From Halogeometricum pallidum JCM 14848 (lineage in GTDB: Archaea > Halobacteriota > Halobacteria > Halobacteriales > Haloferacaceae), in contig NZ_AOIV01000036.1 of NCBI RefSeq assembly GCF_000337095.1, positions 73,615-113,194 of the forward strand: DNA of 39,580 nt, read 5' to 3'. A model generated the notes under the pieces. The model was not told the DNA's origin. It saw nothing but the letters and a program-made list of their open reading frames with translations, and made no database searches. This document shows positions 11,198-17,215 of this stretch, piece after piece (the stretch's first letter is position 1; the number at the start of each line of letters is the position of its first letter). Position numbers and translations under genes: made by a program.

Positions 11198-12243
11198 CGC
11201 TCTTATGTAGAGCTGCGGAAAGCCCCGAGAACGAGGCAGTCGATGGCGGTTTCGAGGGATTCGCCGGCAAGGTTCAACGAGCGAATGAGGCCGAAGGTGT
11301 GAGCGGCCTGTTCCAAGCCTTGCTTGGACAGGCCGCGAAACTTCCGTAGCCACGGTGTCACCAGCGAGAACAGACACTCGGCCTGGTTGATGTGGACGCC
11401 GTCTGGCGAAACGTACCGCTCCTTGTGCACGACCGTCCGATGCTCGAACTCCATCTCTCGATACGCTTGGAGACCGTCAGTCCAGACCTCTCCTAACTCC
11501 GTAGAGAGGTCTGCAGCTTCCAGAATCACTGGTTCAAGATCGCCGCTGTAATCGATTCCAGGTTGGCCGCGAATCACCCGCAGCGAGTCGCGGCACGCCG
11601 CGACGAGCGTCAGCTGGTCGCCGTAGCGTCCTCGCCACCGCGACCGCCCCGATCGAGACGATCCGCCGCGAGGACGACTGTCTCGCGGCGGATCTTGGCC
11701 TTTGTACCCTGAACACACCTCCCCGGACTCGTCGACCTGTGTCGGTCCGTCGATCGTCTGATCGAGAAGCTTCCAGACGATGGGGAAGCCGCGATTCATC
11801 GCGGCTTCCACCTCACGAATCGCGTAATAGACCGTTCTATACGCCCGTCCGAGCAGCGGCGCGATCTGATTGATGCTGAGCAGCGTATCCGCGTAGAGCG
11901 TGAACGCGAGAAGCACCTCACCTGTGGCGAGGTGTTTCTCGTGAAATGGCGTTCCGTACGTATAGACCGGCTTGAAATTGCAATCACGGCACCAGATGCG
12001 GTCGAGAGTCGACCACGTTTGAACCGAGTTGTGCCCGCAGCGTGGACAGGACGTGTGCTCCCAGAAGTCCTTGAGTCGCCGCTCGATGCGTGCATCGAGC
12101 GGCTCAGTGTCGATCTCGACGACGCCCAGCTCGATCAGCTCGCGAAACATCCCGCCGAACGCCGGCTGAGCAGAAGCCATACTGCTAGATTATCGCCGGC
12201 TTAGTGTAACTACACGGGCTTTCCGCAGCTCTACATAAGAGCG
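11198..12243 (-). mobile_element. ISH4-like IS1595-family insertion sequence
   Basis: The element is 1,046 bp long. Its terminal inverted repeats (11198-11225 and 12216-12243) match over 28 bp, reading CGCTCTTATG then TAGAGCTGCGGAAAGCCC from outside in. It is flanked by a perfect 8-bp target duplication ATCAGTCT (11190-11197 and 12244-12251). One transposase gene fills it. Intact ends, duplication and reading frame indicate a recent and possibly still active insertion. Confidence 0.92.
11203..12180 (-). CDS. IS1595/ISH4-type transposase
   Basis: This 325-residue transposase starts with a zinc ribbon (SCPRCGHNSVQTW, IWCRDCNFKP) at about 43-70, as in the ISXO2-like IS1595 superfamily. A helix-turn-helix-like LLSINQIAPLLGRAYRTVYYAI precedes an RNase-H-like catalytic core. 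Candidate acidic residues lie in TQVDESGEV, EVWTDGLQAY and the NQAECLFS helix. An Arg/Gly/Ser-rich insert (SRPRGGSSRSGRSRWRGRYG) separates the first two, typical of halophilic members. It is encoded entirely within the terminal repeats; its stop lies inside the left repeat. Confidence 0.88.
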   Translation of the reverse strand: MASAQPAFGGMFRELIELGVVEIDTEPLDARIERRLKDFWEHTSCPRCGHNSVQTWSTLDRIWCRDCNFKPVYTYGTPFHEKHLATGEVLLAFTLYADTLLSINQIAPLLGRAYRTVYYAIREVEAAMNRGFPIVWKLLDQTIDGPTQVDESGEVCSGYKGQDPPRDSRPRGGSSRSGRSRWRGRYGDQLTLVAACRDSLRVIRGQPGIDYSGDLEPVILEAADLSTELGEVWTDGLQAYREMEFEHRTVVHKERYVSPDGVHINQAECLFSLVTPWLRKFRGLSKQGLEQAAHTFGLIRSLNLAGESLETAIDCLVLGAFRSST

Positions 12244-13275: not shown

Positions 13276-14211
13276 TCAGACGCCACAGAGAACCAGTTCG
13301 CCCAGTGCGTCTTGGTGCGACCGGATGGTCGGAGGAGTGACGTTCGCAGCCTCTGCAACCTCCGACTGCGTCAGCCACCGGCCTTCTTCACGTCCTGCTT
13401 TGTAGAGACAGGCTGCTGCGAAGCCCGGTGGTCGGACACCCGTTGTCGCACTCGTTGATTCAGCTTGTTCGGCCAACCTTCGAGCTCGGTGTCGAATGGA
13501 GTCAGGAACATCAAGTTCCGACGCTAGGCGAGGAACAAATTCGCTCGGCCGAACTGGCTGTGTCGGGAGTCCGAGATCGGTGTTCAACGTTTTGTATGCG
13601 CTCTTGACTCTCGACTGCTCGACCCGTGCCGCGTCGACGATGTCGTCGAGTGTTCGTGACAGGCCGCTACAGCGACACGCCCCGTAGACGCTGGCTGTCG
13701 CGATCGCTTCGATCGACCGGCCTCGAAGGAGGTCTTCATTCTGAGCGCTCCGGAAGAGCTGACAGGCTTGGTCACGAATCGAATCTGAGAGCTCGAGAAC
13801 GCTCGCAATTCTTCGAACTTCACCCAGGCCGTGTGCGAGGTTTCGCTCGGCTTTCGACTGGAACCGCCCACGGGTCTGTTCACGTCGCATTCGGGCTAGC
13901 TGCTGACGCTTTCGTCCGGAGAGCTCGTTTCCGTTCGCATCTTTCCTGCGACCGATCTCGGTCGAAAGCCCTCGGTCATGGCGGGCGGCAGTTAGTGGAG
14001 CACCCGTTCGCTTTCGTCGATCCTGATCGTGAGTTCTCCATTCAGGACCGCGGTCGATTCGTTGTTCGTCAATAACGAGTCCACAGTCCTCACAGATGGT
14101 TTCGACCGAGTTGGTAGTGACCCGGCCACTGCACTCAGGACATTGGTTTGCGTTCGATTCCGTTTGGACGTCCTCGTCGAAGCTCGTTTCATAGATATCT
14201 CTCATCGCCAT
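13276..14211 (-). CDS. tfb: Transcription initiation factor TFB
   Basis: This 311-residue TFIIB homologue recruits RNA polymerase to TBP-bound promoters. The N-terminal zinc ribbon is CPECSGRVTTNS ... ICEDCGLVIDE (about 24-48). The B-reader/linker contains GPEWRTHDQDRRKRTGAPLT ahead of HDRGLSTEIG. Two cyclin-fold repeats follow (about 120-300), the first with RDQACQLFRSAQ ... RGRSIEAIATASVYGACRCS, the second ending in ROP-like GRWLTQSEVAEAANVTPPTIRSH. Haloarchaea carry several TFBs with different promoter preferences. A plasmid-borne copy preceded by the same hairpin element as the accessory genes could favour their promoters; this is inference. Confidence 0.93.
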   Translation of the reverse strand: MAMRDIYETSFDEDVQTESNANQCPECSGRVTTNSVETICEDCGLVIDEQRIDRGPEWRTHDQDRRKRTGAPLTAARHDRGLSTEIGRRKDANGNELSGRKRQQLARMRREQTRGRFQSKAERNLAHGLGEVRRIASVLELSDSIRDQACQLFRSAQNEDLLRGRSIEAIATASVYGACRCSGLSRTLDDIVDAARVEQSRVKSAYKTLNTDLGLPTQPVRPSEFVPRLASELDVPDSIRHRARRLAEQAESTSATTGVRPPGFAAACLYKAGREEGRWLTQSEVAEAANVTPPTIRSHQDALGELVLCGV

Positions 14212-14410: not shown

Positions 14411-14848
14411 ATGTACCAACAGATTCTGATTCCAACTGACGGAAGCGCGGGAGCGACGAAAGCAATCCATGAGGGCGTCCGATTAGCTGACCTCACGGGA
14501 GCAACTGTTCACGGACTCTACGTTGTCGATACGCGGGATTACAACACGCTTCCCGAGTCGAAATGGCTCACGCTGGCAGACGAGCTCGAGGCTGCCGGTG
14601 AAACAGCGCTCGAAGCCATCCAGGCAGAGGCCGAAGCTGTCGGTGTGCCGAGTGAGACGGCCATTAGAAAGGGCATACCGCACGAAGAGATTCTACGGTA
14701 CGTAGGCGACCACGACATCGACCTGATTGTTATGGGAACCCACGGGCGAACTGGATTCAATCGGTTCCTCATTGGGAGTGTAACCGAGAAAATCATCCGT
14801 CAGACTCCCATCCCCGTTCATATCGTTCGAATCAACGAAGACGACTGA
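14411..14848 (+). CDS. Universal stress protein (UspA family)
   Basis: Start set at the ATG at 14411 (MYQQILIPTDGS), the canonical UspA N-terminus; the frame opens 30 bp earlier. The 145-residue product is a single UspA domain. The ATP-binding loop GTHGRTGFNRFLIGSVTEKI, of the G-x2-G-x9-G-S type, lies at about 113-132, and the C-terminal strand is IPVHIVRI. Intact Gly residues suggest nucleotide binding. It is convergent with the crcB pair and adjacent to the fluoride block. A stress role alongside it is plausible but not demonstrated by the sequence. Confidence 0.92.
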   Translation: MYQQILIPTDGSAGATKAIHEGVRLADLTGATVHGLYVVDTRDYNTLPESKWLTLADELEAAGETALEAIQAEAEAVGVPSETAIRKGIPHEEILRYVGDHDIDLIVMGTHGRTGFNRFLIGSVTEKIIRQTPIPVHIVRINEDD

Positions 14849-14854
14849 CTCTCC

Positions 14855-15217
14855 TCAGCCGAGTAGTTGAACGAGTCCCCACGCCAACCCAATCGCGAGC
14901 CCTGCGCCAAGCAGATTGCCTCCAGCGTTGCCGATCGCACGGCCACGTTCCCCCGTCTCCCAGAGCCGGACCGTCTCGAAAGAGAACGACGAGAAGGTCG
15001 TAAACGACCCACAGACACCGGTCCCGAACAGCAATAGAAGCGTCGTGTCCGCACCGAGGAATGTGATGAGGCCGAGTGCAAAGCTTCCGAGGACGTTCAC
15101 GGCGAACGTCCCCGTCGGGTACTCTTCGACATCGACGAGCTGGCTTACGTAGTGACGAAGCAGCGCACCGATCGCACCTCCGGTGCCGACAACATGTGCA
15201 GGGTCGAATTCAATCAT
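14855..15217 (-). CDS. crcB: CrcB/FluC fluoride channel subunit, second gene of pair
   Basis: Start set at the ATG at 15217 (MIEFDPAHVV), overlapping the upstream crcB stop by 8 bp. The 120-residue, four-helix membrane protein shows the Fluc signature: GTGGAIGALLRHYVS, TGTFAVNVLGSFALGLI (conserved Asn) and GVCGSFTTFSSFSFE (aromatic pore region). Fluc channels export fluoride as dual-topology dimers. Species with two adjacent genes, as here, usually build heterodimers. Translation is coupled to the first gene, so both are controlled by the riboswitch at 15624-15678. Confidence 0.93.
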   Translation of the reverse strand: MIEFDPAHVVGTGGAIGALLRHYVSQLVDVEEYPTGTFAVNVLGSFALGLITFLGADTTLLLLFGTGVCGSFTTFSSFSFETVRLWETGERGRAIGNAGGNLLGAGLAIGLAWGLVQLLG

Positions 15218-15608
15218 TCGACCACCGCCGATCGACGGACTGCGCAAGGTACCGTCCGAGCAGTACACCCGTAAATCCGAGTGTATAGTTGGCAGCGATA
15301 TTCGCGACCAACCAGAGGGGTGGTGCTTGACTCGATTGCAGTGCAAACGTACTGTATGTGGTGAACGACGAGAGAAACCCGGTCGATACGACAGCACGAG
15401 TTTCTTGGGCCAAGACGCCCGAGTAGAGCGTTTCGTACAGAACAAATCCCAACGCGAAACTTCCGAGCGCGTTGACGGTGAGCGTACCGAACATCCCCGG
15501 CAAGAGGAACCCGGTGAAATAGCGGAGGTTCGACCCGGCAAAGCCGCCGATTGCAATGAGTGCCAATGATTCGACGCGAACGAGTGGGTGTGCGGTTTTC
15601 TCTGCCAT
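15210..15608 (-). CDS. crcB: CrcB/FluC fluoride channel subunit, first gene of pair
   Basis: Start set at the ATG at 15608 (MAEKTAHPLVRV); the frame opens at 15635, but that region belongs to the riboswitch expression platform. The 132-residue product has GGFAGSNLRYFTG, TLTVNALGSFALGFVL and STGFLSSFTTYSTFA, matching Fluc helices 1-3. Four transmembrane segments are evident. The start codon's A lies in a helix that could sequester it (see the riboswitch). It forms an overlapping pair with the gene at 14855. Confidence 0.93.
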   Translation of the reverse strand: MAEKTAHPLVRVESLALIAIGGFAGSNLRYFTGFLLPGMFGTLTVNALGSFALGFVLYETLYSGVLAQETRAVVSTGFLSSFTTYSTFALQSSQAPPLWLVANIAANYTLGFTGVLLGRYLAQSVDRRWSND

Positions 15609-15623
15609 GACTCTGTCCTCATA

Positions 15624-15678
15624 GACAGGAGTCATCAGCCGACGGATTCGGCGGTTGGATTAGGCGGACTCCATCGCC
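15624..15678 (-). promoter_or_regulatory. Fluoride riboswitch 1 (crcB motif) before the crcB pair
   Basis: The minus strand carries the crcB-motif consensus: GGCGATGGAGTCCGCC, AACCGCC, then GCTGATGACTCCTGTC. P1 pairs GGAGTC (15667-15672) with GACTCC (15628-15633). The same 3' strand can instead pair with nucleotides 15608-15617, forming TGACT(C)CTGTC/GACAG-AGTCA and covering the A of the start codon. Fluoride binding would favour P1 and free the start, giving translational ON control. The platform is a reading of the sequence; the aptamer match is strong. Confidence 0.93.
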
Positions 15679-15679
15679 T

Positions 15680-15695
15680 GTTCTACCAGTAGAAC
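15680..15695. repeat. 16-bp palindrome just upstream of riboswitch 1
   Basis: GTTCTAC-CA-GTAGAAC is a perfect inverted repeat one base outside the aptamer. It may be an operator near the transcription start or a leader hairpin. A CATAAG box (about 15710-15716) on the minus strand could be the TATA element. Confidence 0.45.
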
Positions 15696-15788
15696 CTTCT
15701 GCTCGTCACTTATGCCCTCTGGAATCGAGAACTGTCTATTACTATTGAATACGCTTCAATTATGCTCTTCTACAGGCCACGACCGCTA

Positions 15789-16007
15789 TTAGCTGTCTCT
15801 TCGGAGAATGTACGCAAGGATTCCGAGCAGGACTGAATATGGGGGTGCGGTCTCGATTGCGATGCGGAGGGTCTCTCCAGTCACGTAAGAAAAGACAACC
15901 CATCCAATAAACCAACAAATTGAGAATATGACCGCCCATCGCAGCGCCGAGGCTCTACCAGACGATTCAGGCGTGTGGTTCGTACGTGATGTATCCTGTT
16001 GTCCCAT
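15789..16007 (-). CDS. Small membrane protein under fluoride-riboswitch control
   Basis: Start set at the ATG at 16007 (MGQQDTSRTNH), which has GGAGG 9-13 bp upstream; the longer open frame runs through the riboswitch. The 72-residue product has a polar N-terminus of about 23 residues. Two probable transmembrane helices follow: RWAVIFSICWFIGWVVFSYV and YSVLLGILAYIL, separated by TGETLRIAIETAPP. It is not a CrcB or CLC-F protein and I recognise no family. Its own fluoride riboswitch directly upstream implies a role in fluoride stress, such as a channel accessory or small transporter. Confidence 0.8.
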   Translation of the reverse strand: MGQQDTSRTNHTPESSGRASALRWAVIFSICWFIGWVVFSYVTGETLRIAIETAPPYSVLLGILAYILRRDS

Positions 16008-16038
16008 CGTGGCGACCTCCACCTTGAGGTGAGTGGAA

Positions 16039-16095
16039 ACAGGAGTCATCAGCTGGCGGGTCCAGCGGTTGGGGTAAGGCGGACTCCATCGCCAC
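16039..16095 (-). promoter_or_regulatory. Fluoride riboswitch 2 before the small membrane protein
   Basis: Minus strand: GTGGCGATGGAGTCCGCC, CAACCGCTGG, then AGCTGATGACTCCTGTT, a second crcB-motif aptamer with P1 arms at 16082-16087 and 16042-16047. The first seven bases GTGGCGA (16089-16095) are exactly complementary to TCGCCAC (16009-16015), which lies between the GGAGG ribosome site and the ATG at 16007. This suggests alternative pairing that controls translation. Confidence 0.9.
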
Positions 16096-16118
16096 GAGTA
16101 TCCCGGAATTTGCGCCCC

Positions 16119-16133
16119 AATACTATAAGAACA
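16119..16133 (-). promoter_or_regulatory. TATA-like box upstream of riboswitch 2
   Basis: The minus strand reads CTTATAGTATTG about 25-35 bp before the aptamer's 5' end, the correct distance for transcription to begin just ahead of the riboswitch. Confidence 0.5.
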
Positions 16134-16279
16134 GGGGCAATCAGACCCCACAACAGAATTGTCTTTCTTCCAATCTAAGGTATTGCTGTTAGTAGTGTTG
16201 TGTTGAGAGGACGATTGGTCGCGGTTATAGGAGTTTACACAGTGAGTCGAGAGTACTATGTTCGGACATCAGGATGGTC

Positions 16280-17215
16280 TCAGGGACCTGTCGAGTTGAA
16301 TGCCTCTTCTAGGAACGGGACGACTTGCTTCTTTCGCGACATCACCCCCGGGAGGAACGATTCTTGGTCCGTGAACGTCGTGTCTAACCCTTCTTCGATG
16401 GGATCGATCTCTGGACCAGCGACAAGTGCAGTCGAATCTTCTTCAAGCAGGTCCGTAACGAGGAGCAAAAACACTGCGTAGTCGCGTTCTGTAGCGACAT
16501 CGTCCATGGCCTCAAGGACGGTCTCTTGTTGACCCAATACGACCGACGGCTCTACCGTTTCGATCTGTCCAATACCGACTTGATGTGCGTCGAAGTCGAA
16601 CTCTTTGAAATCGCTGAGTACCATCTCTCGTGGACTCTTCTCCCCGATTTTGCTCTTCTGTGAGAGGAGATCCTTTCCGTATGTTTCATAGTCCACACCA
16701 GCAATATCGGCAAGTCGCCCGGCTACAGTTCGATCTCGGTCAGTCGTCGTTGGAGACCGGAGCACAACTGTATCACTGAGAATTCCGCTCAGCAACAAGC
16801 CCGCGGTCTGCGTGGTGATCGTCTCGTTCGCGTCGTCAAACAACTGTGTAAGAATCGTCGCAGTCGACCCGACAGGCTCGTTTCGGAACAGAATAGGCTC
16901 GCTTGTTTCGATGTCGCCGATACGATGGTGATCGATAATCTCGACAATCTCTGCGTGCTCCGTCCCGGTTACCGTTTGGCTGTACTCATTGTGATCGACG
17001 AGAATCAATTGTTCGTCTGCGGCATCGTCGAGAAGTAATGGTACTTCGGCATCCCAGCGGTCCAAGACGAACTGTGTTTCTGGGTTTAGGGCTCCTGCTC
17101 GTGCAGGAACTACGTCTTCACTTTTGTTCTTCCTCAATCGTGCGTATGCTAACGCTGAGCAAATCGTGTCGGTATCAGGTTGTTGATGGCCGACTACGTA
17201 GATCGGTTCAGACAT
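16280..17215 (-). CDS. ppaC: Family II (Mn/Co-dependent) inorganic pyrophosphatase
   Basis: This 311-residue DHH-family protein hydrolyses pyrophosphate. N-terminal metal ligands are GHQQPDTDT (H10, D14, D16), then VDHN (D74) and the DHH motif IIDHHRIGD (D95-H97). The C-terminal DHHA2 domain carries the active-site SRKKQVVP (about 292-299). Length and motif order are standard for PpaC. Family II pyrophosphatases are strongly inhibited by fluoride, and their genes are known partners of fluoride riboswitches in bacteria. No aptamer is visible before this copy. Its position beside two riboswitch-controlled genes suggests replacement of a fluoride-poisoned enzyme. Confidence 0.93.
   Translation of the reverse strand: MSEPIYVVGHQQPDTDTICSALAYARLRKNKSEDVVPARAGALNPETQFVLDRWDAEVPLLLDDAADEQLILVDHNEYSQTVTGTEHAEIVEIIDHHRIGDIETSEPILFRNEPVGSTATILTQLFDDANETITTQTAGLLLSGILSDTVVLRSPTTTDRDRTVAGRLADIAGVDYETYGKDLLSQKSKIGEKSPREMVLSDFKEFDFDAHQVGIGQIETVEPSVVLGQQETVLEAMDDVATERDYAVFLLLVTDLLEEDSTALVAGPEIDPIEEGLDTTFTDQESFLPGVMSRKKQVVPFLEEAFNSTGP

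Follow-up and report, generated by a model that had tools for sequence, protein, structure and literature searches.

Fluoride riboswitches of the crcB motif (Rfam RF01734) have been described in archaea as well as in bacteria. The Thermococcus kodakarensis switch lies before a fluoride-export locus (TK0513-TK0514), is presumed to act on translation (PMC8241225, PMC4247193) and, according to a 2021 paper, is the only experimentally determined natural archaeal riboswitch (PMC8241225). In bacteria, the fluoride operon of Enterobacter cloacae FRM places ppaC, uspA and crcB close to a single fluoride switch, which serves six genes, enolase and gpmA included, and the pyrophosphatase is under that switch (PMC5533749). 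A further point of comparison is provided by the haloarchaeal ArsR-ACR3-ArsC clusters, which contain arsenite/arsenate genes and ArsR-type regulators and in which no fluoride aptamer was seen.

The locus described here lies in a window (the whole stretch of DNA that was analysed) of 39,580 nucleotides from Halogeometricum pallidum JCM 14848. Like the RF01734 riboswitches it has full-length covariance matches, the pseudoknot and a place before crcB, but here two aptamers occur at one locus, on separate genes, and the haloarchaeal expression platform is close to the start codon and mostly without a Shine-Dalgarno sequence. The T. kodakarensis switch differs in having one aptamer and a hyperthermophile host. 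Both the aptamers and the crcB pair belong to known families. In the papers searched, which were for the most part open-access, we found no description of a second aptamer placed before a new small gene, or of the haloarchaeal platform that closes the start codon; priority is therefore uncertain. On the minus strand the order is family II pyrophosphatase, aptamer A, a 72-aa ORF, aptamer B, crcB1 and crcB2, with a usp gene converging from the opposite side. The features are as follows.

17243-17236, minus strand: TATA-like site CTTAAATC of the pyrophosphatase gene, 28 nt before its ATG
17215-16280, minus strand: family II pyrophosphatase (NF003877, 377 bits against a cut-off of 283; PF01368 and PF02833, DHH and DHHA2)
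16123-16128, minus strand: weak TATA-like box TTATAG of switch A, displaced by at most one base from the TATA position usual for the class
16102-16033, minus strand: fluoride aptamer A, crcB motif (RF01734, 49.2 bits, E 7.9e-11)
16008-16039, minus strand: switch A leader (Shine-Dalgarno GGAGGT at 16020-16015, UCGCCACG at 16015-16008)
16007-15789, minus strand: 72-aa two-helix membrane protein of an unnamed family (Halobaculum roseum has an ORF in the same place, 83-84% identical)
15707-15714, minus strand: TATA-like box CATAAGTG of switch B, at the position usual for the class (ranked 14th among 800 positions)
15687-15619, minus strand: fluoride aptamer B, crcB motif (RF01734, 54.6 bits, E 1.4e-12)
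15607-15635, minus strand: predicted expression-platform hairpin of switch B, running from the aptamer 3′ strand into the crcB1 start codon as far as its second base
15608-15210, minus strand: crcB1, fluoride channel subunit (PF02537, 3.9e-17)
15217-14855, minus strand: crcB2 (PF02537, 1.3e-24; TIGR00494 above cut-off)
14411-14848, plus strand: usp, universal stress protein gene (PF00582, 1.1e-36), convergent with crcB2

The window contains exactly two RF01734 matches (cmscan; gathering score 34 bits), both on the minus strand, and these are also the sole matches in the whole 4.38 Mb genome. A permissive Rfam scan of the window gave, beyond aptamers A and B, chance matches alone. A sequence-only reading had placed two minus-strand crcB motifs at 15624-15678 and 16039-16095, and both fall within the RF01734 matches. 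The pseudoknot strands GGAGTC/GACTCC pair fully in each aptamer, and both aptamers are predicted to bind fluoride with Mg2+. In alignments with H. roseum the core of aptamer B is 98% identical to its counterpart. The core of aptamer A has five differences; four of them lie in the loop stem, as two pairs in which both bases have changed together. Aptamer A of H. roseum has the same bases there as aptamer B, and gene conversion is therefore an alternative cause of the paired changes.

The same reading correctly recognized a crcB pair. Both genes pass the Pfam CRCB cut-off; for TIGR00494, crcB2 is above the cut-off and crcB1 below. The two genes overlap by 8 bases, and crcB1 (dN/dS 0.10 against H. 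roseum) starts 19 nt past the 3′ strand of aptamer B. The ORF caller had proposed starts at 15635 and 16151, inside or before the aptamers; these are unlikely, the conserved ATGs being at 15608 and 16007. The usp gene, whose convergent placement is also present in H. roseum and Halorubrum sp. BOL3-1, is a neighbour outside riboswitch control.

How might such a switch work? When 53 leaders are compared, a TATA-like signal is strongest 30-34 nt ahead of the aptamer, from which it follows that the mRNA probably starts about ten bases before the aptamer. In 49 leaders the pairing between the leader and the aptamer 3′ strand has a mean of -9.4 kcal/mol, against -5.2 kcal/mol when shuffled, with 24 of the 49 at or below 0.05; collapsed to 23 genera, the mean z is -2.07 +/- 0.28. 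The 3′ strand is favoured over other aptamer windows for this pairing (Wilcoxon 2.4e-7), which also tracks changes in the strand, as with GGCUGAUG and CAUCAGCC in one genome, and GGCUGACGG and CCGUCAGCC in another. The switch B hairpin covers the first two bases of the AUG and is among the stronger such haloarchaeal hairpins, at -15.0 kcal/mol compared with -5.9 +/- 2.3 for shuffled leaders (-14.3 in H. roseum), in a folding model that excludes pseudoknots and tertiary contacts and is uncalibrated for molar KCl. The hairpin signal is absent from several other haloarchaeal leaders, and a Shine-Dalgarno-like four-mer occurs in 9 of 51. From these leader sequences we infer that the haloarchaeal fluoride switch is likely a translational ON switch.

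The comparison rests on a survey of 391 haloarchaeal genomes, with aptamers detected at E 0.001. Fluoride aptamers were found in 66 of these genomes (34 above the Rfam cut-off) and CRCB-family genes in 378. This 17% is comparable with the approximately 15% of Flucs that are under riboswitch control (PMC11139923). A crcB gene lies within 120 nt at 50 of the 56 aptamer sites checked, the other six being the A switch of each two-aptamer block, two sites where no crcB was found and two false matches. Weak, partial hits in G289 and at G201:C3:120799, with crcB absent nearby, were judged false. Good aptamers with no detectable downstream crcB occur at L070 in genome G255 (53.9 bits) and L076 in genome G201 (49.7 bits), where crcB has possibly been broken or replaced. 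The pseudoknot pairs in all 51 haloarchaeal leaders, through the compensatory variants GGAGTC/GACTCC, GGGGCC/GGTCCC, GGCGTC/GACGCC and GGGGCT/GGCTCC. As a side observation, the aptamers of loci L051, L053-L057, L059-L062 and L102-L105 share the GGGGCC/GGTCCC pseudoknot and long loop-stem insertions, and they fall below the Rfam cut-off yet stand before crcB. This group belongs mostly to one GTDB family (f4 of the survey) and is under-scored by the Rfam model.

The two-aptamer block, with the first aptamer before a small ORF, was found among the 391 genomes in the window and in H. roseum (plasmid NZ_CP082287.1) alone. The leader of switch A has a strong Shine-Dalgarno, GGAGGT, seven bases before the ATG. 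Directly before the ATG, UCGCCACG is a perfect complement of the aptamer A 5′ strand CGUGGCGA at 16096-16089, and the predicted duplex, at -18.5 kcal/mol, is the best of all aptamer A windows, with the free fold of the full sequence as further evidence; in H. roseum this helix lacks one of its pairs. Pairing of the switch A leader with the 3′ strand shows no excess (shuffle fraction about 0.4). Switch A differs from switch B in this respect, and its expression platform is uncertain.

The gene behind aptamer A, which had been noted as a membrane gene of no named family, does encode a 72-aa protein for which we found no Pfam or NCBIfam family, and the gene is not known to have been connected with fluoride before. 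Membership of DUF997/YhdT was considered and rejected, as PF06196 gave 12.2 bits against a cut-off of 26.3 and matched one of four members only. AlphaFold2 predicts two helices, residues 13-43 and 47-71, at a moderate pLDDT of 71. A profile built from four sequences recovers clear relatives in genomes G304, G277 (Halocatena marina), G209 and G164, along with a degraded relative in G250. Beyond H. roseum, five of six relatives lie within ACR3/ArsC arsenic clusters (ACR3 identified by TIGR00832, where tested). In G277, G304, G209 and G250 the small gene follows an ArsR-type regulator, ACR3 and an ArsC-like phosphatase (shortened in G277), a place directly after arsC that likens the block to the described arsenic clusters. 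In G164 it is preceded by an aldehyde-dehydrogenase-like ORF, and on a Halococcus dombrowskii plasmid it sits between an arsC-like gene and arsD-arsA. Small two-helix ORFs of this kind, behind ArsC in haloarchaeal arsenic clusters, are seen at L133:5033-7079 and L096:4842-7133. We looked for viral carriage of the small gene and found none. Because nearly all of its relatives neighbour genes for arsenite exporters, the most likely role of the small protein is to help in the efflux of toxic anions.

The block also appears to be younger than its host genome. Its DNA is about 89-92% identical to that of H. roseum, where it sits on a 240-kb plasmid. Between the two genomes dS ranges from 0.17 (usp) through 0.19 (small ORF) and 0.24 (crcB1) to 0.28 (pyrophosphatase), values below the 0.52 of rpoB. 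The genome has four CRCB matches in two pairs, the second pair without an aptamer, and the two other genomes of the genus have two CRCB matches and no fluoride aptamers. The lower dS, the second crcB pair and the plasmid-borne copy in H. roseum indicate that the block was likely gained by horizontal transfer, most simply from one plasmid-like element to another. The gene content of the 146-kb contig (transposase, TFB, HerA-like and ArdC-like genes) suggests that it too is a plasmid. In the same synteny block the TFB gene at 13276-14211 has a dS of 0.70 against H. roseum, making the block a mosaic and suggesting a recombination boundary beside it. An IS1595-like transposase lies at 11203-12180, about 3 kb from the fluoride block. 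The suggestion that the cassette is mobile is plausible, given that the H. roseum copy is plasmid-borne and the block is younger than the host genomes.

The explanation that we favour, and regard as probable, is that of a transferred two-module fluoride-resistance block with translational switches and a small efflux helper. It would tie together the aptamers, gene identities, leader complementarity and younger block age, all of which were established by computation. In each module a promoter-like site would be followed by a fluoride aptamer and then a gene, with module B the standard haloarchaeal one. At low fluoride, the leader before the crcB1 start would pair with the aptamer 3′ strand, that is, the loop stem and pseudoknot strand, and mask the start codon. 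With Mg2+ and fluoride bound, the 3′ strand would be locked in the aptamer and the crcB1 start exposed, so that crcB1 and the overlapping crcB2 could be translated into a fluoride-exporting channel. Module A would couple the same sensor to the small two-helix membrane protein; here a Shine-Dalgarno precedes the start. As a translational switch gates the adjacent reading frame alone, an added gene would need its own aptamer.

Could switch B alone matter, with switch A a leftover copy before a decaying small ORF that has no function in fluoride resistance? The small ORF is under weak purifying selection (dN/dS 0.47 against H. roseum, p = 0.07; 0.39 and 0.69 in the other frames), so that it may be decaying, and the H. 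roseum ORF is a few residues shorter at its C-terminus. The promoter match of switch A is poor (a PWM built from other leaders ranks TTATAG 139 of 800), the usual switch hairpin is absent, and the small gene is missing from the annotation in both plasmid records checked, those of H. roseum and Halococcus dombrowskii. Nevertheless, aptamer A is intact in both lineages, with an unchanged pseudoknot and a loop stem kept through paired changes, the Shine-Dalgarno before the small ORF is also kept in H. roseum, and relatives of the protein are 29-36% identical across haloarchaeal families, with conserved tryptophans. We therefore consider a leftover switch A unlikely. A different objection is that the switches act on transcription, through termination or RNA stability, rather than on access to the start codon. 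In archaea a T-rich tract suffices for termination, and such a tract inside the gene could serve. Predicted terminators also overlap many crcB-motif RNAs (PMC2864571, PMC13273304). Against this, the start codon lies 11-20 nt past the aptamer in nearly all crcB leaders and none of 51 leaders has a T-run of five or more, leaving no room for a terminator, and the leader complementarity abuts the start codon. Action on transcription thus seems distinctly unlikely.

The pyrophosphatase raises a third alternative, that the whole stretch is one fluoride operon like the ppaC-uspA-eno-gpmA-crcB arrangement of E. cloacae, a bacterial precedent (PMC5533749). A family II pyrophosphatase, crcB and usp do lie within 3 kb, and pyrophosphatase is among the genes most often tied to fluoride switches (PMC11139923). 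The sequence-only reading had likewise counted a fluoride-sensitive pyrophosphatase in the cassette; neither part of that claim is supported. Inhibition of family II enzymes needs much more fluoride than that of family I (PMC11857102), and as a family they are comparatively insensitive. The gene has its own TATA-like site and, unlike its FRM counterpart, no aptamer before it, the Rfam scan giving chance matches alone; usp is on the opposite strand. A search for the same gene order recovered the two-switch block in H. roseum and did not recover the pyrophosphatase beside it: there 4.6 kb, including Mg2+-transport genes, separates the gene from the switches, and in other haloarchaeal plasmids it is isolated. 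We found no pyrophosphatase near the other haloarchaeal fluoride switches examined. Family II enzymes occur in 22 of the 391 genomes, and fluoride switches show no significant excess among these (6 of 22 against 60 of 369, p = 0.23). We reject a conserved fluoride cassette that includes the pyrophosphatase, and a single operon is in our view very unlikely. The genome has one family I and two family II pyrophosphatases, and this one could help under fluoride as a resistant backup, although we saw no sign that fluoride controls it. The intervening H. roseum region (NZ_CP082287.1:42176-46541; L069:4177-8560) holds a PAP2 phosphatase, CorA, two magnesium transporter genes and TrkA-C; as fluoride acts with Mg2+, their presence near the block may be no chance.

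A broader proposal combines two ideas: that the 72-aa protein serves toxic-anion efflux in general, as a helper common to the unrelated exporters CrcB and ACR3, and came under fluoride control when it captured an aptamer, and that haloarchaeal switches close a start-codon hairpin largely without a Shine-Dalgarno. We put this forward tentatively, as a doubtful conjecture. The small protein would tie fluoride resistance to arsenic resistance. The haloarchaeal leaders offer a testable model of riboswitch control of translation where the Shine-Dalgarno is mostly absent, in hosts such as Haloferax in which genetics is possible, and the leader could become a fluoride-inducible control element for haloarchaea.
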